This document shows, one piece after another, positions 2,051 to 16,707 of a DNA stretch of 46,019 bases. A program made the position numbers and the translations under genes. Numbering within the stretch: the first letter of the stretch is position 1; each line of letters opens with the position of its first letter. The notes under the pieces are model-generated. The model saw only the letters and a program-made list of their open reading frames with translations, was not told the origin of the DNA and searched no databases. Where the stretch lies: positions 1 through 46,019 of the IMG/VR virus record IMGVR_UViG_3300045952_000136; one strand, written 5' to 3'. Source of the DNA: a virus.

Positions 2051-2275
2051 ATGCCGCCGTCGCCCTGGCTCAAGATGGCGATCACCGGCGTCGGGGTGTA
2101 CCTCGGCGGGGTGGCGGCGGCCTACCAGCTCGACCCGTGCCCGGCGAGCTGGCTCAAGTGGGTGATGGGGGGCGCCGCGCCGTTGGCTGGCTACCTCATC
2201 GGCTTCTGGCAGATCAACACGGCGATCCGGCCGCCGATCAGCTACGCCGGGGTGCCGCCGCGCGGGGGCGCGTAG
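2051..2275 (+). CDS. Small two-TM membrane protein, holin candidate
   Basis: 74 residues from ATG 2051, five bases after the previous stop. Two hydrophobic helices (ITGVGVYLGGVAAAYQL; KWVMGGAAPLAGYLIGFWQI) are joined by a short loop, the layout of a class II holin, with a short Pro/Gly tail. It is the last rightward gene of the membrane cassette and converges on the leftward block. Holin assignment is inference from topology and position; no recognisable endolysin is next to it. Confidence 0.65.
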   Translation: MPPSPWLKMAITGVGVYLGGVAAAYQLDPCPASWLKWVMGGAAPLAGYLIGFWQINTAIRPPISYAGVPPRGGA

Positions 2276-2292
2276 GGCCCTCCCTGCGGGCC
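2276..2292. terminator. Weak GC hairpin between converging genes
   Basis: GGCCC-tccctgc-GGGCC immediately follows the stop at 2275 and precedes the end of the leftward block at 2338. The stem is only 5 bp and has no T-run, so it is at best a weak intrinsic terminator. Confidence 0.25.
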
Positions 2293-2337
2293 GTGGTGGC
2301 GTCAGGATCGCCGATCCCGGCCCGGGGAGGATGAGGG

Positions 2338-2682
2338 TTAGGGAGTGACGCGGATACGCCCGCCACGGGTCACCGTGGCGACCACGTGGCCGGCAATCTC
2401 GATGCGCCCGTACCGGTGCCCGCCCATCGAGGCATCGGCCATGACCCAGAGCAGGGCGCCGACTGCCTCCCGCCACGACGGGGTGATGAGCACCGGTCGC
2501 GTCTCGTCGGCGCGCGCCGGGCCCAGGTAGTCAGCCCACGACCGCGAGTCCGGTTCCGGGCTCTGCTGGTCCCGCTCCCGGTAGACCCGGTAGCGGGCGT
2601 GGTGGGAGTCGGGACGGGCCGTGGACAGGTCGGGATCGCCTGTCGCATACACCACCGTCTTTTCGTCTACCTGAGTCCTCAT
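2338..2682 (-). CDS. Hypothetical protein, leftward block
   Basis: 114 residues. The start at 2682 is chosen because AGGAGGAAGGG lies just upstream and the ATG forms an ATGA overlap with the preceding gene's stop. The protein is hydrophilic in its first half and has a more compact C-terminal part (WREAVGALLWVMADAS, then short beta-like stretches). No family recognised. Last gene of a three-gene leftward unit. Confidence 0.7.
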   Translation of the reverse strand: MRTQVDEKTVVYATGDPDLSTARPDSHHARYRVYRERDQQSPEPDSRSWADYLGPARADETRPVLITPSWREAVGALLWVMADASMGGHRYGRIEIAGHVVATVTRGGRIRVTP

Positions 2683-2921
2683 CCCTTCCTCCTCGCGCGG
2701 CCCTTGGGGGCCGCCGGCTGGTGGTTGTCGCCGTCGCCCTCCCCGTCGAGCGCCGCTGCCACGGGGGCGCCCTCCGGGGTCCGGGCGTAGTGGAGCACTG
2801 CCGCCCGGAGAGCCCGGGCGGCGAACACCTGGACGCTGACCCCGGCCGACGCGGCGGCGAGGCGTAGCCAGCGCGCCTCCTGCTCGGGGAGGCGCGCGGT
2901 GATGGGGGTGGGGGCGGCCAT
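2679..2921 (-). CDS. Putative ribbon-helix-helix DNA-binding protein
   Basis: 80 residues. The N-terminus (PITARLPEQEARWLRLAAAS, then AGVSVQVFAARALRAAV) has the short strand plus two helices expected of an Arc/CopG-type ribbon-helix-helix domain; the tail is basic and flexible. Such proteins are dimeric repressors, often of their own promoter. The palindrome at 3191-3205 near the start of this unit is a possible target. The family call rests on pattern only. Confidence 0.6.
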   Translation of the reverse strand: MAAPTPITARLPEQEARWLRLAAASAGVSVQVFAARALRAAVLHYARTPEGAPVAAALDGEGDGDNHQPAAPKGRARRKG

Positions 2922-3145
2922 CAGCGCCCGCCCCCCGTGATCTCGGCGAGCGCCGCGGTGGCGCAGCCCTCATGCCGGCCCAGATTCCACCCCTGGATCG
3001 GCCTGAGGCCCGGGGCCGGCCCCGGGCGAAACGTGCCGTAGGTCCGGCCAAGTCGCCGGAGCGCCGCCGACTTGGCCGCTCGGTCAGTGGCGGCCTGGAT
3101 CATGATGGGGCCCTCGTTGTCGCTGTCGAGTCGGTACATCTTCAT
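2921..3145 (-). CDS. Hypothetical protein, first gene of a leftward unit
   Basis: 74 residues from ATG 3145, which follows GGAGGAGGAGCGGAG, an unusually long ribosome-binding site. A longer in-frame reading to 3202 would run into the operator region and is less likely. The protein opens with MKMYRLDSDNEGPIMIQAA and has a basic middle. No family recognised. Its stop abuts the RHH-like gene, so the two are coupled. Confidence 0.65.
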   Translation of the reverse strand: MKMYRLDSDNEGPIMIQAATDRAAKSAALRRLGRTYGTFRPGPAPGLRPIQGWNLGRHEGCATAALAEITGGGR

Positions 3146-3281: not shown

Positions 3282-3590
3282 CTACTCCCACACCACCTCG
3301 TATCCCTTGCTCGTCAGGCACTCAGCGTATCGATCCCGCTGGCGGCTGGCCGCGAGCGGTCCGAAGATCGGCGCCACGGGCAGGAGCATCCCGAGGGACA
3401 TGGCGGTGATCCAGAACGTCATGGCCCCGCTACTGCGGCTCGTCTCCGAGATCTGGTCGTCGCAGGCCGCGCGGTCGGCCGCCAGCGTAGATGGTGGCTG
3501 ATCCTTGAGGGGGCGGACGTGGCGCGGATGAGGCGAGGCGCAGCCGGCTAGGGTGAGGACCAGGAGTGCGAGCGCGAGTGGGCGTCTCAT
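3282..3590 (-). CDS. Small lipoprotein
   Basis: 102 residues. The N-terminus is a lipoprotein signal with basic MRRP, a Leu/Ala core and the lipobox L-A-G-C17. After the Pro-rich region comes a second hydrophobic, Gly-containing segment (about residues 57-80), then CLTSKGYEV, a C-terminus seen in many small bacterial lipoproteins. It lies in the leftward block two genes after the repressor-like gene, so it may be made in the carrier state. Superinfection exclusion or surface modification is a reasonable guess. The second hydrophobic segment argues against an outer-membrane spanin. Confidence 0.75.
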   Translation of the reverse strand: MRRPLALALLVLTLAGCASPHPRHVRPLKDQPPSTLAADRAACDDQISETSRSSGAMTFWITAMSLGMLLPVAPIFGPLAASRQRDRYAECLTSKGYEVVWE

Positions 3591-3602
3591 GACGGATCTC
3601 CC

Positions 3603-3992
3603 TTACGCGATCAACGATATGATGAGCGGCCAGAGTGCGCGTAACCCATCGGTGCGGCGCGTGCGGCGCTGTGCCCGCCGCCGGGCGCGCTCCTCGGGCG
3701 GGACGATACCACGCTCGGGGACCGGCGGGGCGAGCGGTTTGCGCGGACCGGGCGGGGCCAGGTGGAACACGGTCCGCTCGACGACGACCGGCCCGGTGAT
3801 CGCGTCGGCCAGGCGCTTCGTCAAGTCGGCCGAGCGGAGATAGACCATCAGCAGATCCAGGAGCATCGCCGCGTCGATGGTGCCGCAGAGTTCGCTCCGG
3901 CTAGACCAGATTTCCAGCGTATCGCCAGCGCGCAGCGGCAGTCGGATCCCGCCATGCGCGAGGAAGCGAACGAAGACGTCGATGGCGGGCAC
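3603..3992 (-). CDS. Hypothetical protein with C-terminal hydrophobic segment
   Basis: 129 residues from GTG 3992; the ribosome-binding site is weak. The protein has a helical middle (MLLDLLMVYLRSADLTKRLADA), a Pro-rich stretch, an Arg-rich stretch and a hydrophobic end (LRALWPLIISLIA) that could insert in the membrane as a tail anchor. It lies 12 bases upstream of the lipoprotein gene on the same strand, and its stop overlaps that gene's ribosome-binding region. No family recognised. Confidence 0.6.
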   Translation of the reverse strand: MPAIDVFVRFLAHGGIRLPLRAGDTLEIWSSRSELCGTIDAAMLLDLLMVYLRSADLTKRLADAITGPVVVERTVFHLAPPGPRKPLAPPVPERGIVPPEERARRRAQRRTRRTDGLRALWPLIISLIA

Positions 3993-7892: not shown

Positions 7893-8662
7893 TCGCAGAG
7901 AGGCTTGACCAGATCAGCACTCTGTACCAGGGCAGCCACCAGCCCGACGGGCAGATGTGCGTGATGGAGGCGGCCGCCTACGTGGCCGGCGAGCCCTGGA
8001 GCGACCACCCGGCGTGCGTATCGCCGGTCATCGGGGCGTTCCTCCGGTCGTGGAACGACGCGCTGCCGGACGACGCCACGCGGACGCGCCTGCTCCGGCC
8101 GCTCATCGAGCCCATCCTGGGCACGCACTGCGACGTGGCGACTGAGAGTCGCCTCGCGTGGATGTGCGTCGACTGGCTGGCGCGCGTGCAGGCGCCGGCG
8201 TGGATGCGGCTGACGTCGGCGCTGTGCCCCTACACAGAAGGCTTGGCCGACCTGCCAGAGATCACCATCGACTCGTGGCCGTCCGCTCGTCCTCGGGTCA
8301 CTGCGGCCTGGGTTGCGGCCAGGGCTGCGGCCTGGGATGGGGCCGGGATTGCGGCCAGGGCTGCGGCCTGGGCTGCGGCCGGGGATGCGGCCGGGGTTGC
8401 GGCCGGGGCTGCGGCCAGGGCTGCGGCCTGGGTTGCGGCCGGGGTTGCGGCCGGGGCTGCGGCCGGGGCTGCGGCCGGGGATGCGGCCAGGGTTGCGGCC
8501 GGGGTTGCGGCCGGGGCTGCGGCCAGGGCTGCGGCCTGGGCTGCGGCCAGGGCTGCGGCCAGGGCTGCCCTCGCGTCGACAGTCGCGACCCTCCAGGAGG
8601 AGGCGGTGGCGCTGGTGCTGCGAATGTGCGCGGTGGCCAAGGGGGAGACGTATGGACGCTGA
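7889..8662 (+). CDS. Protein with conserved N-terminal domain and 4-residue Ala-rich repeats
   Basis: 257 residues, ATGA overlap. Residues 1-130 carry a sequence recalled from hypothetical proteins of high-GC bacteria and phages ([20 protein letters not shown], then [17 protein letters not shown]). Residues 138-225 are 22 tetrapeptide units of the form (A/V/D/I)-A-A-(W/R/G), encoded by the 12-bp array at 8301-8564. A short helical end ([15 protein letters not shown]) closes the protein. The repeats should form a long helix with Trp/Arg side chains at regular steps. Function unknown. Confidence 0.75.
8301..8564 (+). repeat. 12-bp coding minisatellite, 22 units
   Basis: Twenty-two consecutive units of consensus YTGCGGCCDGGG run without a gap, with a partial unit after 8565. 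Nearly all variation sits at two positions: unit base 1 (C/T/A) and base 9 (T/A/G). Both are non-synonymous in frame, giving Ala/Val/Asp and Trp/Arg/Gly. One unit (8337-8348, ATGGGGCCGGGA) is more diverged. Copy number may change by slippage in 4-residue steps without breaking the frame. Confidence 0.95.
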
Positions 8663-13581: not shown

Positions 13582-13889
13582 GTCGCCGGCCCTACGACCG
13601 CACCAGACGCCGGGAGTGGGAACTGCCCGAGGGGTCGGGCCCACCCGCGGAGGCGGCCGAGCGCATCGTGGCCGAGGAGAAGCTGGCGGCCACCGCGAGG
13701 AAGCATCCCACCGCCCGGCGGATCGACGGCCCCCTGACCCCGGCGGACCGCTTCGCCCTGGGCGGCCGGGAGGCGGTGGAGGAGCTCCGGTCGCGCTCCC
13801 GGCTCATGGCCCTGGCCCGGGAGGGAGATGCGGAGGCAATCCGGGAGTTGCGGGAGCGATTCCGGGCGTGGGTGGTGGCTGGGCCATGA
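13578..13889 (+). CDS. Hypothetical charged helical protein
   Basis: 103 residues, ATGA overlap. Nearly all helical and charged (AEAAERIVAEEKLAATARKH; MALAREGDAEAIRELRERFR). It lies directly before the primase-like gene. No family recognised. Confidence 0.5.
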   Translation: MSRRPYDRTRRREWELPEGSGPPAEAAERIVAEEKLAATARKHPTARRIDGPLTPADRFALGGREAVEELRSRSRLMALAREGDAEAIRELRERFRAWVVAGP

Positions 13890-14377
13890 CGGTCGACGAG
13901 GTGTTGGCCCTCCTCCCTCGCCACATCCGGGCGGGCGGCGGTTACCTGGCCCACTGCCCGGCTCACCAGGACCGCTCGCGGAGCCTCTCCGTGGCCCCGG
14001 GACGGCGCGAGGGGTATGTCCTCCTGCATTGCTTCGCCGGATGCGATCGTGGGGCGATTCTGGCCCGGCTGGGGCTGGCTGATGAAGAGCCCCCGGGGCC
14101 GGCGCCCTACATCGCGCCTCCCGGCGACGAGTGGGACTCCGCGCACCGGCTTGCCCTGCAGATGGTCAGGCGGCAGCCCTGGTGGAAGACGTGGGCCACA
14201 CCGGAGGTGACCGAGCTGCGCCGGCACCGGGCCCGGATCGATGCCCTCCACCGGGCCGCCGAGCGGCTGGGCCCGGACGACCCGGCCGCGTGGGACATGC
14301 TGGCCCTGGCTGCGGCGCTGGAACATGAGTTCCGCCTGCTGGCGTTCACCGAAGCCTTTGCCGACGACATCGCGTGA
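13886..14377 (+). CDS. CHC2 zinc-finger primase-like protein
   Basis: 163 residues, ATGA overlap. Residues 20-60 show a DnaG-type CHC2 zinc finger, with C24-x2-H27 and C49-x3-C53 framing YLAHCPAHQDRSRSLSVA and LLHCFAGCD. The TOPRIM catalytic domain is absent: after residue 70 there is only a Trp- and Ala-rich helical region. It may therefore be a template-recognition subunit that works with the ATPase encoded next door (GTGA overlap). Confidence 0.8.
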   Translation: MTVDEVLALLPRHIRAGGGYLAHCPAHQDRSRSLSVAPGRREGYVLLHCFAGCDRGAILARLGLADEEPPGPAPYIAPPGDEWDSAHRLALQMVRRQPWWKTWATPEVTELRRHRARIDALHRAAERLGPDDPAAWDMLALAAALEHEFRLLAFTEAFADDIA

Positions 14378-15642
14378 GCCTCCCCCTGTCGGTCACGAAG
14401 GTCGGGGACGAATATCGCGTCCTCGTCGACAAGGTGGCTCTGCGCTTCAGGTCCCTCACGTCGCACCATGACGGCCCGACGGCGATCCTCGAAGTGGTGG
14501 ACATGCTCGCCGGGGGACGCCCCCACGTGGACCGCCTGGCCCTGCTGTCAAGCCGCACCCGGGCCACCCTAGCGAAGACCCTCGCCATCCGGTGGGGGGA
14601 TCACCCCTGGTCCGTCATCCTCGACGACGCCTGCCACGCCGTCTATGAGGCGTTCTCTGCCGGGGAGCCCGCGGAATCCCTCGAGCCCGAGGAGCCCGAC
14701 GAGACGGCGTGGCTCGTGGATGGCTTGATCCCCCTGGACGCCACGACAGTGCTCTACGCTGATGGCGGATCGCTCAAGTCGTGGTTCGCTCTGGCCCTCG
14801 GGGTGGCCGCGCTGAGGAACGAGCCCCTCGCCAATTCCGCACGGTGGTGCGTCCGCCGGCGCCGGTCCGTGCTATACCTCGACTGGGAGACGGACCGGAG
14901 AACACACGGGCGGCGCCTCTACCGGCTCCTGGCCGGTCTTGGCCTGGAGTCCTGCCCTGAGGGGCTCGCCTACATGCGCCTGGCCGGCCGCCCGCTCCAC
15001 ATTTCGATCCAGTCCGTGGCCGGCGAGGTGTCCCGTCTTGGGGCTGACCTGGTGATCGTGGATAGCCTCGGCCTGGCCTGCGGGGATGAGCCCGAGACCG
15101 CCGCGGCCAACCTCCGCACCCTCGGCGTCCTCTCCACCCTGCCGACCACGAAGCTCGTGGTCACCCACGTCAACGCTCAGACCGCAGTCACCCCGAACGG
15201 CCCAGGCCGGCCCTATGGGAGCGTCTACGTCCGCAACGTGGCGCGAAGCGCCATCGAAGCACGAAGCGAGCCACAAGGCGATGGCAGGGTGCTCGTGACC
15301 TACTACCATCGCAAGGCCAACGACACCGAACTGGCCGAGACCACCGCGCTAACATGGTGTTTTTCAAAGTTTCTGAGCGGTCCCGTCACGGTGGAAGTCG
15401 CTGATCCTGACCTCCAGCACGCCACCCTCCCGGAACGAATTGAACAGGCCCTCGGGCGCGGGGCGAAAAGCGCAACACTCCTCGCAGAGGAACTTGGCAC
15501 TCCGGCCAATGCGATTCGCGCCACGCTGGGCAGGATGGAAAAGCGCAACACCGTGGTACGCATCGAGGAGTACGAGGCGGGGAGGGGCAAAAAAGGCATG
15601 TGGGGACTGATAGATAGAAAGCGCAACACCCTTGGAGATTGA
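14374..15642 (+). CDS. RepA/DnaB-type replicative ATPase with C-terminal winged helix
   Basis: 422 residues from GTG 14374. The RecA-like core has a modified Walker A (A129-D-G-G-S-L-K135-S136, keeping Lys-Ser but lacking the usual glycines, a variant recalled from phage/plasmid helicases). Walker B is LVIVDSLGLA and a sensor-like LVVTHVNAQ follows. Residues about 345-415 look like a winged helix: ERIEQALGRGAKSATLLAEE, then a recognition helix, then GRGKKGMWGLI. It should load or act as the helicase for phage replication with the CHC2 protein. The last 176 bases of the gene contain copies of the iteron-like repeat. Confidence 0.8.
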   Translation: MSLPLSVTKVGDEYRVLVDKVALRFRSLTSHHDGPTAILEVVDMLAGGRPHVDRLALLSSRTRATLAKTLAIRWGDHPWSVILDDACHAVYEAFSAGEPAESLEPEEPDETAWLVDGLIPLDATTVLYADGGSLKSWFALALGVAALRNEPLANSARWCVRRRRSVLYLDWETDRRTHGRRLYRLLAGLGLESCPEGLAYMRLAGRPLHISIQSVAGEVSRLGADLVIVDSLGLACGDEPETAAANLRTLGVLSTLPTTKLVVTHVNAQTAVTPNGPGRPYGSVYVRNVARSAIEARSEPQGDGRVLVTYYHRKANDTELAETTALTWCFSKFLSGPVTVEVADPDLQHATLPERIEQALGRGAKSATLLAEELGTPANAIRATLGRMEKRNTVVRIEEYEAGRGKKGMWGLIDRKRNTLGD

Positions 15643-15780
15643 AAGCGCAACACCAGGTTGCGCTTTCTTCTCTCCGGGAGAGATTTCTCTCTCCCAGAGA
15701 AAGCGCAACACTTCTCTTCTCTATAGGGTGTTGCGCTTTTGGTATGGAGACTAGACCAATGACCCAGGAAAGCGCAACAC
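15467..15780 (+). repeat. Iteron-like cluster (AAAGCGCAACAC), candidate replication origin or cosB
   Basis: The 12-mer AAAGCGCAACAC occurs exactly six times on this strand (starts 15467, 15540, 15618, 15642, 15700, 15769) and once exactly inverted (15728-15739). An imperfect inverted copy lies at 15655-15666. The first two copies fall in the ATPase gene in different frames (KSATL versus KRNTV), so DNA is conserved, not protein. The stretch 15661-15725 is AT/pyrimidine-rich for this genome and holds nested palindromes. Position after a helicase gene fits an origin; position just upstream of TerS also fits a terminase-binding cos region. Confidence 0.85.
15641..15667 (+). repeat. Perfect 11-bp inverted repeat at the ATPase stop codon
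   Basis: GAAAGCGCAAC-accag-GTTGCGCTTTC is built from one forward and one inverted iteron core and overlaps the stop at 15640-15642. TTCTCTC follows, not a true T-run, so termination would be weak. Two more palindromes lie immediately downstream: TCTCTCC-g-GGAGAGA (15669-15683) and TTTCTCT-ctccc-AGAGAAA (15684-15702). Confidence 0.85.
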
Positions 15781-15938
15781 CGGTCTCGCCCGTTGCGGCT
15801 CGAAAACTCGGTCGGCTCGATCTCGCCGCCGATCTCCTGGCCGCCATGCCGTGGTGGCTCCGGCTGCTGATGCCGGAGCGGGTCCGCCGGCTGCTGGAGG
15901 AGATCCCTCACCAGCCCGACCTCGACGAGGAGCAGTAA
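15759..15938 (+). CDS. Hypothetical small protein upstream of terminase
   Basis: 59 residues from ATG 15759, chosen because GGAG (15746-15749) lies 9 bases upstream; an in-frame ATG 15744 would add five residues but has no ribosome-binding site. The N-terminal codons overlap the last iteron (QESATP). The core (RLDLAADLLAAMPWWLRLLM) is amphipathic, with an acidic tail. No family recognised. Confidence 0.6.
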   Translation: MTQESATPVSPVAARKLGRLDLAADLLAAMPWWLRLLMPERVRRLLEEIPHQPDLDEEQ

Positions 15939-15939
15939 G

Positions 15940-16707
15940 ATGCCCACCAAGCCGCCCGACCCCACGCTGCCCCCATCGCCAGCCCTGCCCGGTCCATCCC
16001 GGGCACCAACGCTGGGGCCGGAGCAACGCCCAGGGGACCGCGGAGTCGCGGGGCTACCGGAGACGTGGGGTGCTGGAATGCCATTAGCGCGTGAGACAGG
16101 CCCCGGGGCGGTAGGTTCTCCGCGGAGCCCACAGAAAGCGGGTGAGACGAAGCGCCGGGCAGGGCCGAGTGCGGCGCCCTCCAATGGGACAGGACAGCCG
16201 GGCCTCGTCGTCCGGCGGTCGGTCGCCGTCCGCGTGCTCGGGATCAGCGACCGGACGTTCTCGCGCCTGGAGGCTGAGGGGGTCCTTGTCCCGACGACAC
16301 CAGGCGTGGGCCGTCGCCCGTCGGAGTGGGATCTCACCGTGACGGTGCCGGCCTACCTCGCCCATCGCGAGGAAAAGATCACGGGAAACCTGGAGAATCC
16401 GAGAGACCGAGCGTTCCTGGCCCAGGCCGCACTGTCCGAATTCAAGCTCCAGCAGGCGCGCGGCGAGGTGCTCCCACGGGCCGACTGGATACGCAAGGGT
16501 CAGCAGCTCGCCGCGGCGTTCTCGGGGTGGGCACGCCAGGTGCCGGAGCGGCTCGCGCGGGCCGGGTGCCTGGTCCCCGAGCGCGATGCCGAAGCCTTGG
16601 CCGCGGTCGACGAAATGCTGCGCGACATCACGCGCTGGACGGAGCGCGATCTGGAGGCGGTCGAGCTGCTGCCAGCCGCGCGCGGGCCCCATGGCGACGA
16701 TCACTGA
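15940..16707 (+). CDS. terS: Terminase small subunit, Nu1-like
   Basis: 255 residues; GGAG seven bases before the ATG. Residues 1-85 are a Pro/Gly-rich, low-complexity extension. A winged-helix-like DNA-binding segment follows (VVRRSVAVRVLGISDRTFSR, then LEAEGVLVP), then the Nu1-family helix ALSEFKLQQARGEVLPRADW that leads to the part contacting the large subunit. Small subunits recognise the packaging site, which in lambda lies just upstream of this gene; the repeats at 15467-15780 are therefore candidate targets. Overlaps terL by 17 bases. Confidence 0.82.
   Translation: MPTKPPDPTLPPSPALPGPSRAPTLGPEQRPGDRGVAGLPETWGAGMPLARETGPGAVGSPRSPQKAGETKRRAGPSAAPSNGTGQPGLVVRRSVAVRVLGISDRTFSRLEAEGVLVPTTPGVGRRPSEWDLTVTVPAYLAHREEKITGNLENPRDRAFLAQAALSEFKLQQARGEVLPRADWIRKGQQLAAAFSGWARQVPERLARAGCLVPERDAEALAAVDEMLRDITRWTERDLEAVELLPAARGPHGDDH

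Follow-up and report, generated by a model that had tools for sequence, protein, structure and literature searches.

SaPI Rep and SCCmec Cch2 are self-loading helicases that use their C-terminal domain to bind iterons located directly downstream of their own genes (PMC7581432). We describe a similarly placed repeat array in the IMG/VR virus record IMGVR_UViG_3300045952_000136, referred to here as the window (the whole record of 46,019 bp, taken to be a circularly closed assembly because a 127-bp repeat occurs at its ends). The array overlaps the 3' end of a gene for a predicted hexameric helicase with a C-terminal winged helix, and comparison of sequences across relatives indicates that it is probably a phage replication origin bound by the helicase that the overlapped gene encodes.

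SaPI Rep and Cch2 belong to families of the DUF927-containing or Primase_Cterm/D5 type, and Cch2 has 3'-5' polarity (PMC7581432). The window resembles these systems in having iterons at the 3' terminus of the helicase gene and immediately past it, inverted repeats beside the direct repeats and a primase-type protein encoded in the operon. It differs in that the helicase core has neither a DUF927 nor a Primase_Cterm domain but is AAA_25, with a RecA/RepA/DnaB-type fold of the RepA/SF4 kind, in that iterons can sit within the DNA that encodes the winged helix, and in that recognition helix and iteron are matched across many viruses. Given this different core, the helicase falls outside the SaPI Rep families, though it appears to work alike.

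With the RSF1010 RepA/RepC/RepB' replicon the window shares a RepA-type hexameric fold, iterons, stem-loops beside the iterons and a primase-type neighbour (PMC4234260), but RSF1010 has a separate RepC initiator whereas here the helicase carries a fused winged helix, and no gene for a separate RepC-like initiator was recognised in the subset of neighbouring open reading frames (ORFs) that was scanned. The replication protein of phage P4, alpha, recognises origin repeats through a winged helix and has a Toprim-type primase domain (PMC4234260). The window helicase likewise carries a winged helix predicted to read origin repeats, but lacks the primase domain of alpha. The two proteins also belong to different helicase families. 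The replicons of pRN1 (ORF904) and phage BIP-1 have an essential stem-loop, ~100 nt long and immediately downstream of the rep gene, which varies in sequence while keeping its shape; their proteins combine an SF3 helicase with an archaeo-eukaryotic primase, no iterons have been described, and specific binding was sought but not seen (PMC4234260). Common to these systems and the window are the C-terminal winged helix and a stem-loop past the rep gene, with an SF3 core and a primase domain on one side and an SF4/RepA-type core and iterons on the other. The lambda origin has iterons within the coding DNA of gene O and adjoining AT-rich DNA, two features that recur in the window. Lambda O is not a helicase, and host DnaB is delivered by P, whereas the proposed initiator in the window is the helicase itself.

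Results

A motif search bore out the initial annotation of the array: six exact forward copies (+) and one exact inverted copy (-) of AAAGCGCAACAC occur within 15467-15780 (314 bp), together with a near-inverted copy, AAAGCGCAACCT, at 15655 (-). The motif had been noticed nowhere else, and a search of the whole record returned no exact copy outside the array. When up to two mismatches were allowed, the window contained 11 matches to AAAGCGCAACAC compared to 1.6 expected, a count reached in none of 100 dinucleotide shuffles; three of the 11 fall outside the array, each with two mismatches. Three copies lie in the last 180 bp of the helicase gene and use two frames, copy 1 being translated as A-K-S-A-T-L and copies 2 and 3 as E/R-K-R-N-T in a different frame, so that the frame difference reported earlier for the first two coding copies is correct. 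The remaining copies occupy the gap after the helicase gene and the start of a 59-amino-acid ORF (15759-15938). The features are as follows.

14374-15642 (+): predicted hexameric helicase (AAA_25/RepA-like; PF13481, E=2e-17) with C-terminal winged helix; proposed array-binding initiator
15421-15585 (+): DNA encoding the winged helix (amino acids 350-404; predicted recognition helix, amino acids 378-390), from secondary structure of the AlphaFold2 model
15467-15478 (+): iteron 1, coding, K-S-A-T
15540-15551 (+): iteron 2, coding, K-R-N-T, in a frame different from that of iteron 1
15618-15629 (+): iteron 3, coding, K-R-N-T; left arm of outer stem
15642-15653 (+): iteron 4, at the helicase stop codon; left arm of hairpin 1
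15655-15666 (-): near-copy AAAGCGCAACCT; right arm of hairpin 1
15700-15711 (+): iteron 5, exact copy
15728-15739 (-): inverted iteron; right arm of outer stem
15769-15780 (+): iteron 7, at the 5' end of the small ORF 15759-15938
15618-15739 (no strand): branched inverted repeat, with outer stem 15618-15632/15725-15739 and hairpins 15641-15667 and 15676-15695
13886-14377 (+): small ORF with a partial CHC2 (DnaG-type) zinc ribbon (PF01807, E=8e-4; phrog_6088), overlapping the helicase gene from upstream

As had been stated, the array region has a high AT content by the standard of this genome, 51% over 15600-15760 compared to 31% genome-wide, and the 220 bp past the helicase stop codon rank in the top 2% of the record. 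This composition, together with three coding iterons inside a replication gene, corresponds to an origin of the lambda type. Palindromes had been described for 15641-15702, but the structure is larger: 15616-15745 folds as a single branched structure (z = -10.5).

In the AlphaFold2 model of the helicase (pLDDT 85), a beta-rich N-terminal region precedes a RecA-fold ATPase, which is followed by a C-terminal winged helix. The top matches of the model among solved structures were those of the hexameric RSF1010 RepA (1olo and 1g8y, Z 21.4), with which RadA and DnaB structures tie within 1 Z unit. AAA_25 was the sole ATPase family assigned by Pfam, and no sequence relative of the helicase was found in PDB.

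Relatives of the helicase were drawn from IMG/VR, and an unbiased repeat scan was run on 62 non-redundant loci, later enlarged to 93. In the first scan, the top repeat of the whole locus lay at the helicase 3' end in 23 of 62 loci, or 26 when near-top cases, the window among them, were included; 41 of 93 loci scored as having an array of their own motif at this position in the enlarged scan. The initial annotation had looked to conservation of the motif next to homologous helicases, and what recurs is an array in the same place, while the motif itself is not conserved but group-specific (TTGGACA, GATTACA, CGTAACA, GTGACAG, CGTAGCA, ATCTACA, CGCACAC, CGGACA and others). The array trait clusters on the protein tree, with 9 changes compared to 19.9 when labels were shuffled. 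Among 14 whole records, the motif was restricted to the array in six (the window, L031, L061, L042, L072 and L024), and occurred elsewhere too in the other eight, often where the searched word was short. A protein search at 1e-5 found no helicase relative in INPHARED phages or PLSDB plasmids, and one relative was present in genome_contigs, in a Chloroflexota metagenome-assembled genome. The sole IMG/VR contig with the exact window motif in close pairs (L056) gave no sign of this helicase or an array and was rejected.

Structural features accompany the arrays. A hairpin is usual beside them, often with a C-run, TATA and a G-run, and with inverted motif copies flanking it. The best hairpin was at or above the 95th percentile of its own locus in 31 of 44 array loci, compared to 14 of 49 loci without arrays, and AT-richness was in the top 10% of the locus in 14 of 26 and 5 of 36 loci, respectively. 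When 15 arrays were folded as single strands, 13 beat all 200 of their shuffles and one beat 198 of 200.

Were the array read by the winged helix, loci with similar recognition helices would be expected to have similar motifs. We assessed this with Mantel tests of motif similarity against winged-helix or recognition-helix similarity, using the ATPase domain as control. For the first 26 loci with curated motifs, motif similarity was correlated with the winged helix given the ATPase (r = 0.31, p = 0.0002), but not with the ATPase given the winged helix (p = 0.19); raw automated words gave a weaker correlation (r = 0.19, p = 0.008). Across all 41 loci, the correlation with the recognition helix (r = 0.26, p = 0.0002) was maintained given the ATPase (r = 0.25, p = 0.0002), while that with the ATPase given the winged helix was not significant (p = 0.20). 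The 16 loci gathered after the first test, for which only automated motifs were used, showed a correlation with the recognition helix of r = 0.48 (p = 0.0002; r = 0.49 given the ATPase) and with the ATPase of r = -0.12. Thus, the recognition helix of the predicted C-terminal winged helix covaries with the motif in sequence comparisons.

Two pairings of helix and motif that recur across clades, picked out post hoc, follow the same trend. Helices with [IL]RARL go with CGCACAC in L011 and L082, and then in the new loci L428 and L431 (overall Fisher p ~7e-6), and those with D[TS][IV] go with GGACA in L034, L061, L063 and L073, and then in the new locus L459 (overall Fisher p ~6e-6). Locus L266 has a window-like recognition helix and no array 3' of the gene; the motif predicted for it, CGCAACA, is present in exactly three copies in the 6.2-kb locus, all of them in winged-helix-coding DNA. 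Most iterons end in [A/G]CA despite a variable 5' half (L014, L034, L061, L063, L459 and others), a pattern which suggests that one part of the winged helix may contact the shared element of the iteron and another part the variable one.

The nearest relative, L008, is 66-67% identical and shows how an array changes. Spacing is nearly the same (73, 78, 24 and 58 in the window; 73, 78, 23 and 58 in L008), while the copies at matching sites have switched from AAAGCGCAACAC to AAAGCGTGGCA, a change of CAA to TGG, and the coding copies alter the protein from E-K-R-N-T-V in the window to E-K-R-G-I-V in L008. The outer stem, which pairs iteron 3 with the inverted iteron, has the arms AAAAGCGTAGC and GCTACGCTTTT in L008, a matched two-sided change; that both arms carry the matching variant is consistent with pairing or symmetry being kept. 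The branched repeat of L008 has the layout of that in the window (fold z -6.3), and the inner hairpin is present in both, with unrelated sequences.

Among the neighbouring genes, the zinc-ribbon ORF matches phrog_6088 (DNA primase) at E=1e-7, whereas its PF01807 match misses the curated cut-off, and CHC2 ribbons are likewise found upstream of the helicase in L042, L021 and L031. Downstream of the array, a predicted terS (from 15940) is followed by terL. The ORF before the L063 helicase (3384-3937), which has no Pfam match, resembles, on visual inspection, a DnaB N-terminal domain standing alone, and a DnaG C-terminal DnaB-binding domain takes the same position in L058, such that replication parts appear to be split and reshuffled around the helicase.

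Several other repeats were observed. Within the window, the strongest repeat cluster of the record consists of G+C-rich GCTGCGGCC-type words, with 11 copies in ~230 bp at 8322-8552. A single viral contig of 130,935 bp contains two related helicases, L029 and L046, each followed by a TACCGTAGCA array, which may represent a pair of related elements that have been joined or lie in tandem. In the array-negative clade, several copies of a 15-bp tandem repeat, GTAGTAAAAAGACTG, occur ~1.1 kb downstream of the helicase (L016, 8208-8297; also L015 and L017) and are perhaps a displaced array. Dense copies of GAGAGATCC and GAGGTAACA, 13 of each, lie several kb upstream of an array-negative helicase (L037, ~2117-3115).

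Discussion

The combination of iterons and branched inverted repeats in AT-rich DNA with an origin-type helicase that appears to recognise its own array agrees with a replication origin. In the mechanism we propose, the winged helix would bind the iterons, a hexameric helicase would be assembled there and the AT-rich region opened; hairpins extruded from the inverted repeats may aid strand opening or priming, after which the adjacent DnaG-like zinc-ribbon protein and the host replisome would take over. The initial annotation had proposed a lambda-like origin, and its origin part is supported, whereas the binder would be the helicase's own winged helix instead of a separate lambda-O-like initiator or TerS.

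Some results weigh against this reading. An array at the helicase 3' end is missing from slightly more than half of the relatives, among them one clade of 14. The Mantel p-values leave some shared ancestry in, a column-by-column scan singled out no recognition-helix residues, and both helix/motif pairings count close relatives and include two loci (L073 and L082) added by inspection. The ATPase control and the independent recurrence of the same pairs nevertheless argue against a pure ancestry effect. The skew signal for which the initial annotation had looked is also mixed, with an extreme of GC skew within ~300 bp of the array in some records but kilobases away in others. Finally, binding of the array by the helicase could serve regulation, alongside or instead of initiation.

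The last point has a stronger form, in which the repeats are an operator array through which the winged helix, or another regulator, controls transcription between the replication and late genes and not the start of replication. Repressors often contain winged helices of this type, the array is at the end of an operon, and an operator would give identical covariation of motif and helix. We nevertheless consider it unlikely, as neither the region upstream of the operon nor the rest of the record contains the motif, a search for sigma-70-like promoter types found none in 15300-16100, a helicase would be unusual as a dedicated repressor, and AT-richness and large inverted repeats suit an origin better. 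Much less probable is that the helicase transcript ends in a terminator or a structured RNA and that the repeats are by-products of hairpins. Folding is strong and one terminator-like stem with a pyrimidine-rich tail occurs at 15669, but the terminator scan was near the shuffle level (2 found compared to 0.9 expected), no Rfam family scored above its gathering threshold, several copies are unpaired direct repeats within coding DNA, and RNA structure would leave the covariation of motif and helix unexplained.

If the array were a cos or pac site for packaging, with the small terminase subunit (gene at 15940) as its binder, its position just ahead of the predicted terS and terL would be accounted for, and repeats flank cos in lambda. 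Across relatives, however, the array does not stay with the terminase genes: where a terminase was found, most array carriers had it at a distance of ~2 to 60 kb or, in L072, on the opposite strand, and L008 retains the array geometry with a terminase of a different family (PF03354, not GpA). Because terminases are usually kilobases away and of unrelated types, and with the motif tracking the recognition helix of the helicase, we regard packaging as very improbable. The probability we give to a plasmid-like partition or copy-control (incompatibility) locus, as distinct from the origin itself, is equally slight. Iterons do act in copy control of iteron plasmids, but no ParA/ParB-like protein was present among the genes examined near the array in the annotated part of the window, and the partner protein is the helicase.

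With the replication origin retained as the preferred explanation, we lean towards a broader one, that the arrays belong to a widespread replicon family of uncultured phages in which a RepA/SF4-type helicase would serve as its own origin-recognition protein, with a helix-iteron code that is partly readable. Origin recognition and an SF4-type replicative helicase would then be joined in one chain. To our knowledge, such a combination is otherwise known from helicases of the SF3/AAA+ type. A search of the open-licence literature, which gave few on-topic results, found no earlier description of a protein in which an iteron-binding winged helix is joined to an SF4/RepA helicase.

In some members, sites lie within the coding DNA of the reading domain, such that a change in specificity would have to alter the three coding sites, the encoded segment and the non-coding sites together. 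If the proposed origin function is correct, switches in specificity would create separate replication compatibility groups, and likely origins in uncultured phages could be located from sequence alone, each paired with its initiator. The natural pairs of protein and iteron could be used to test directly how the DNA specificity of winged helices changes, and how origin and initiator switch jointly when the sites lie in the initiator's own gene.
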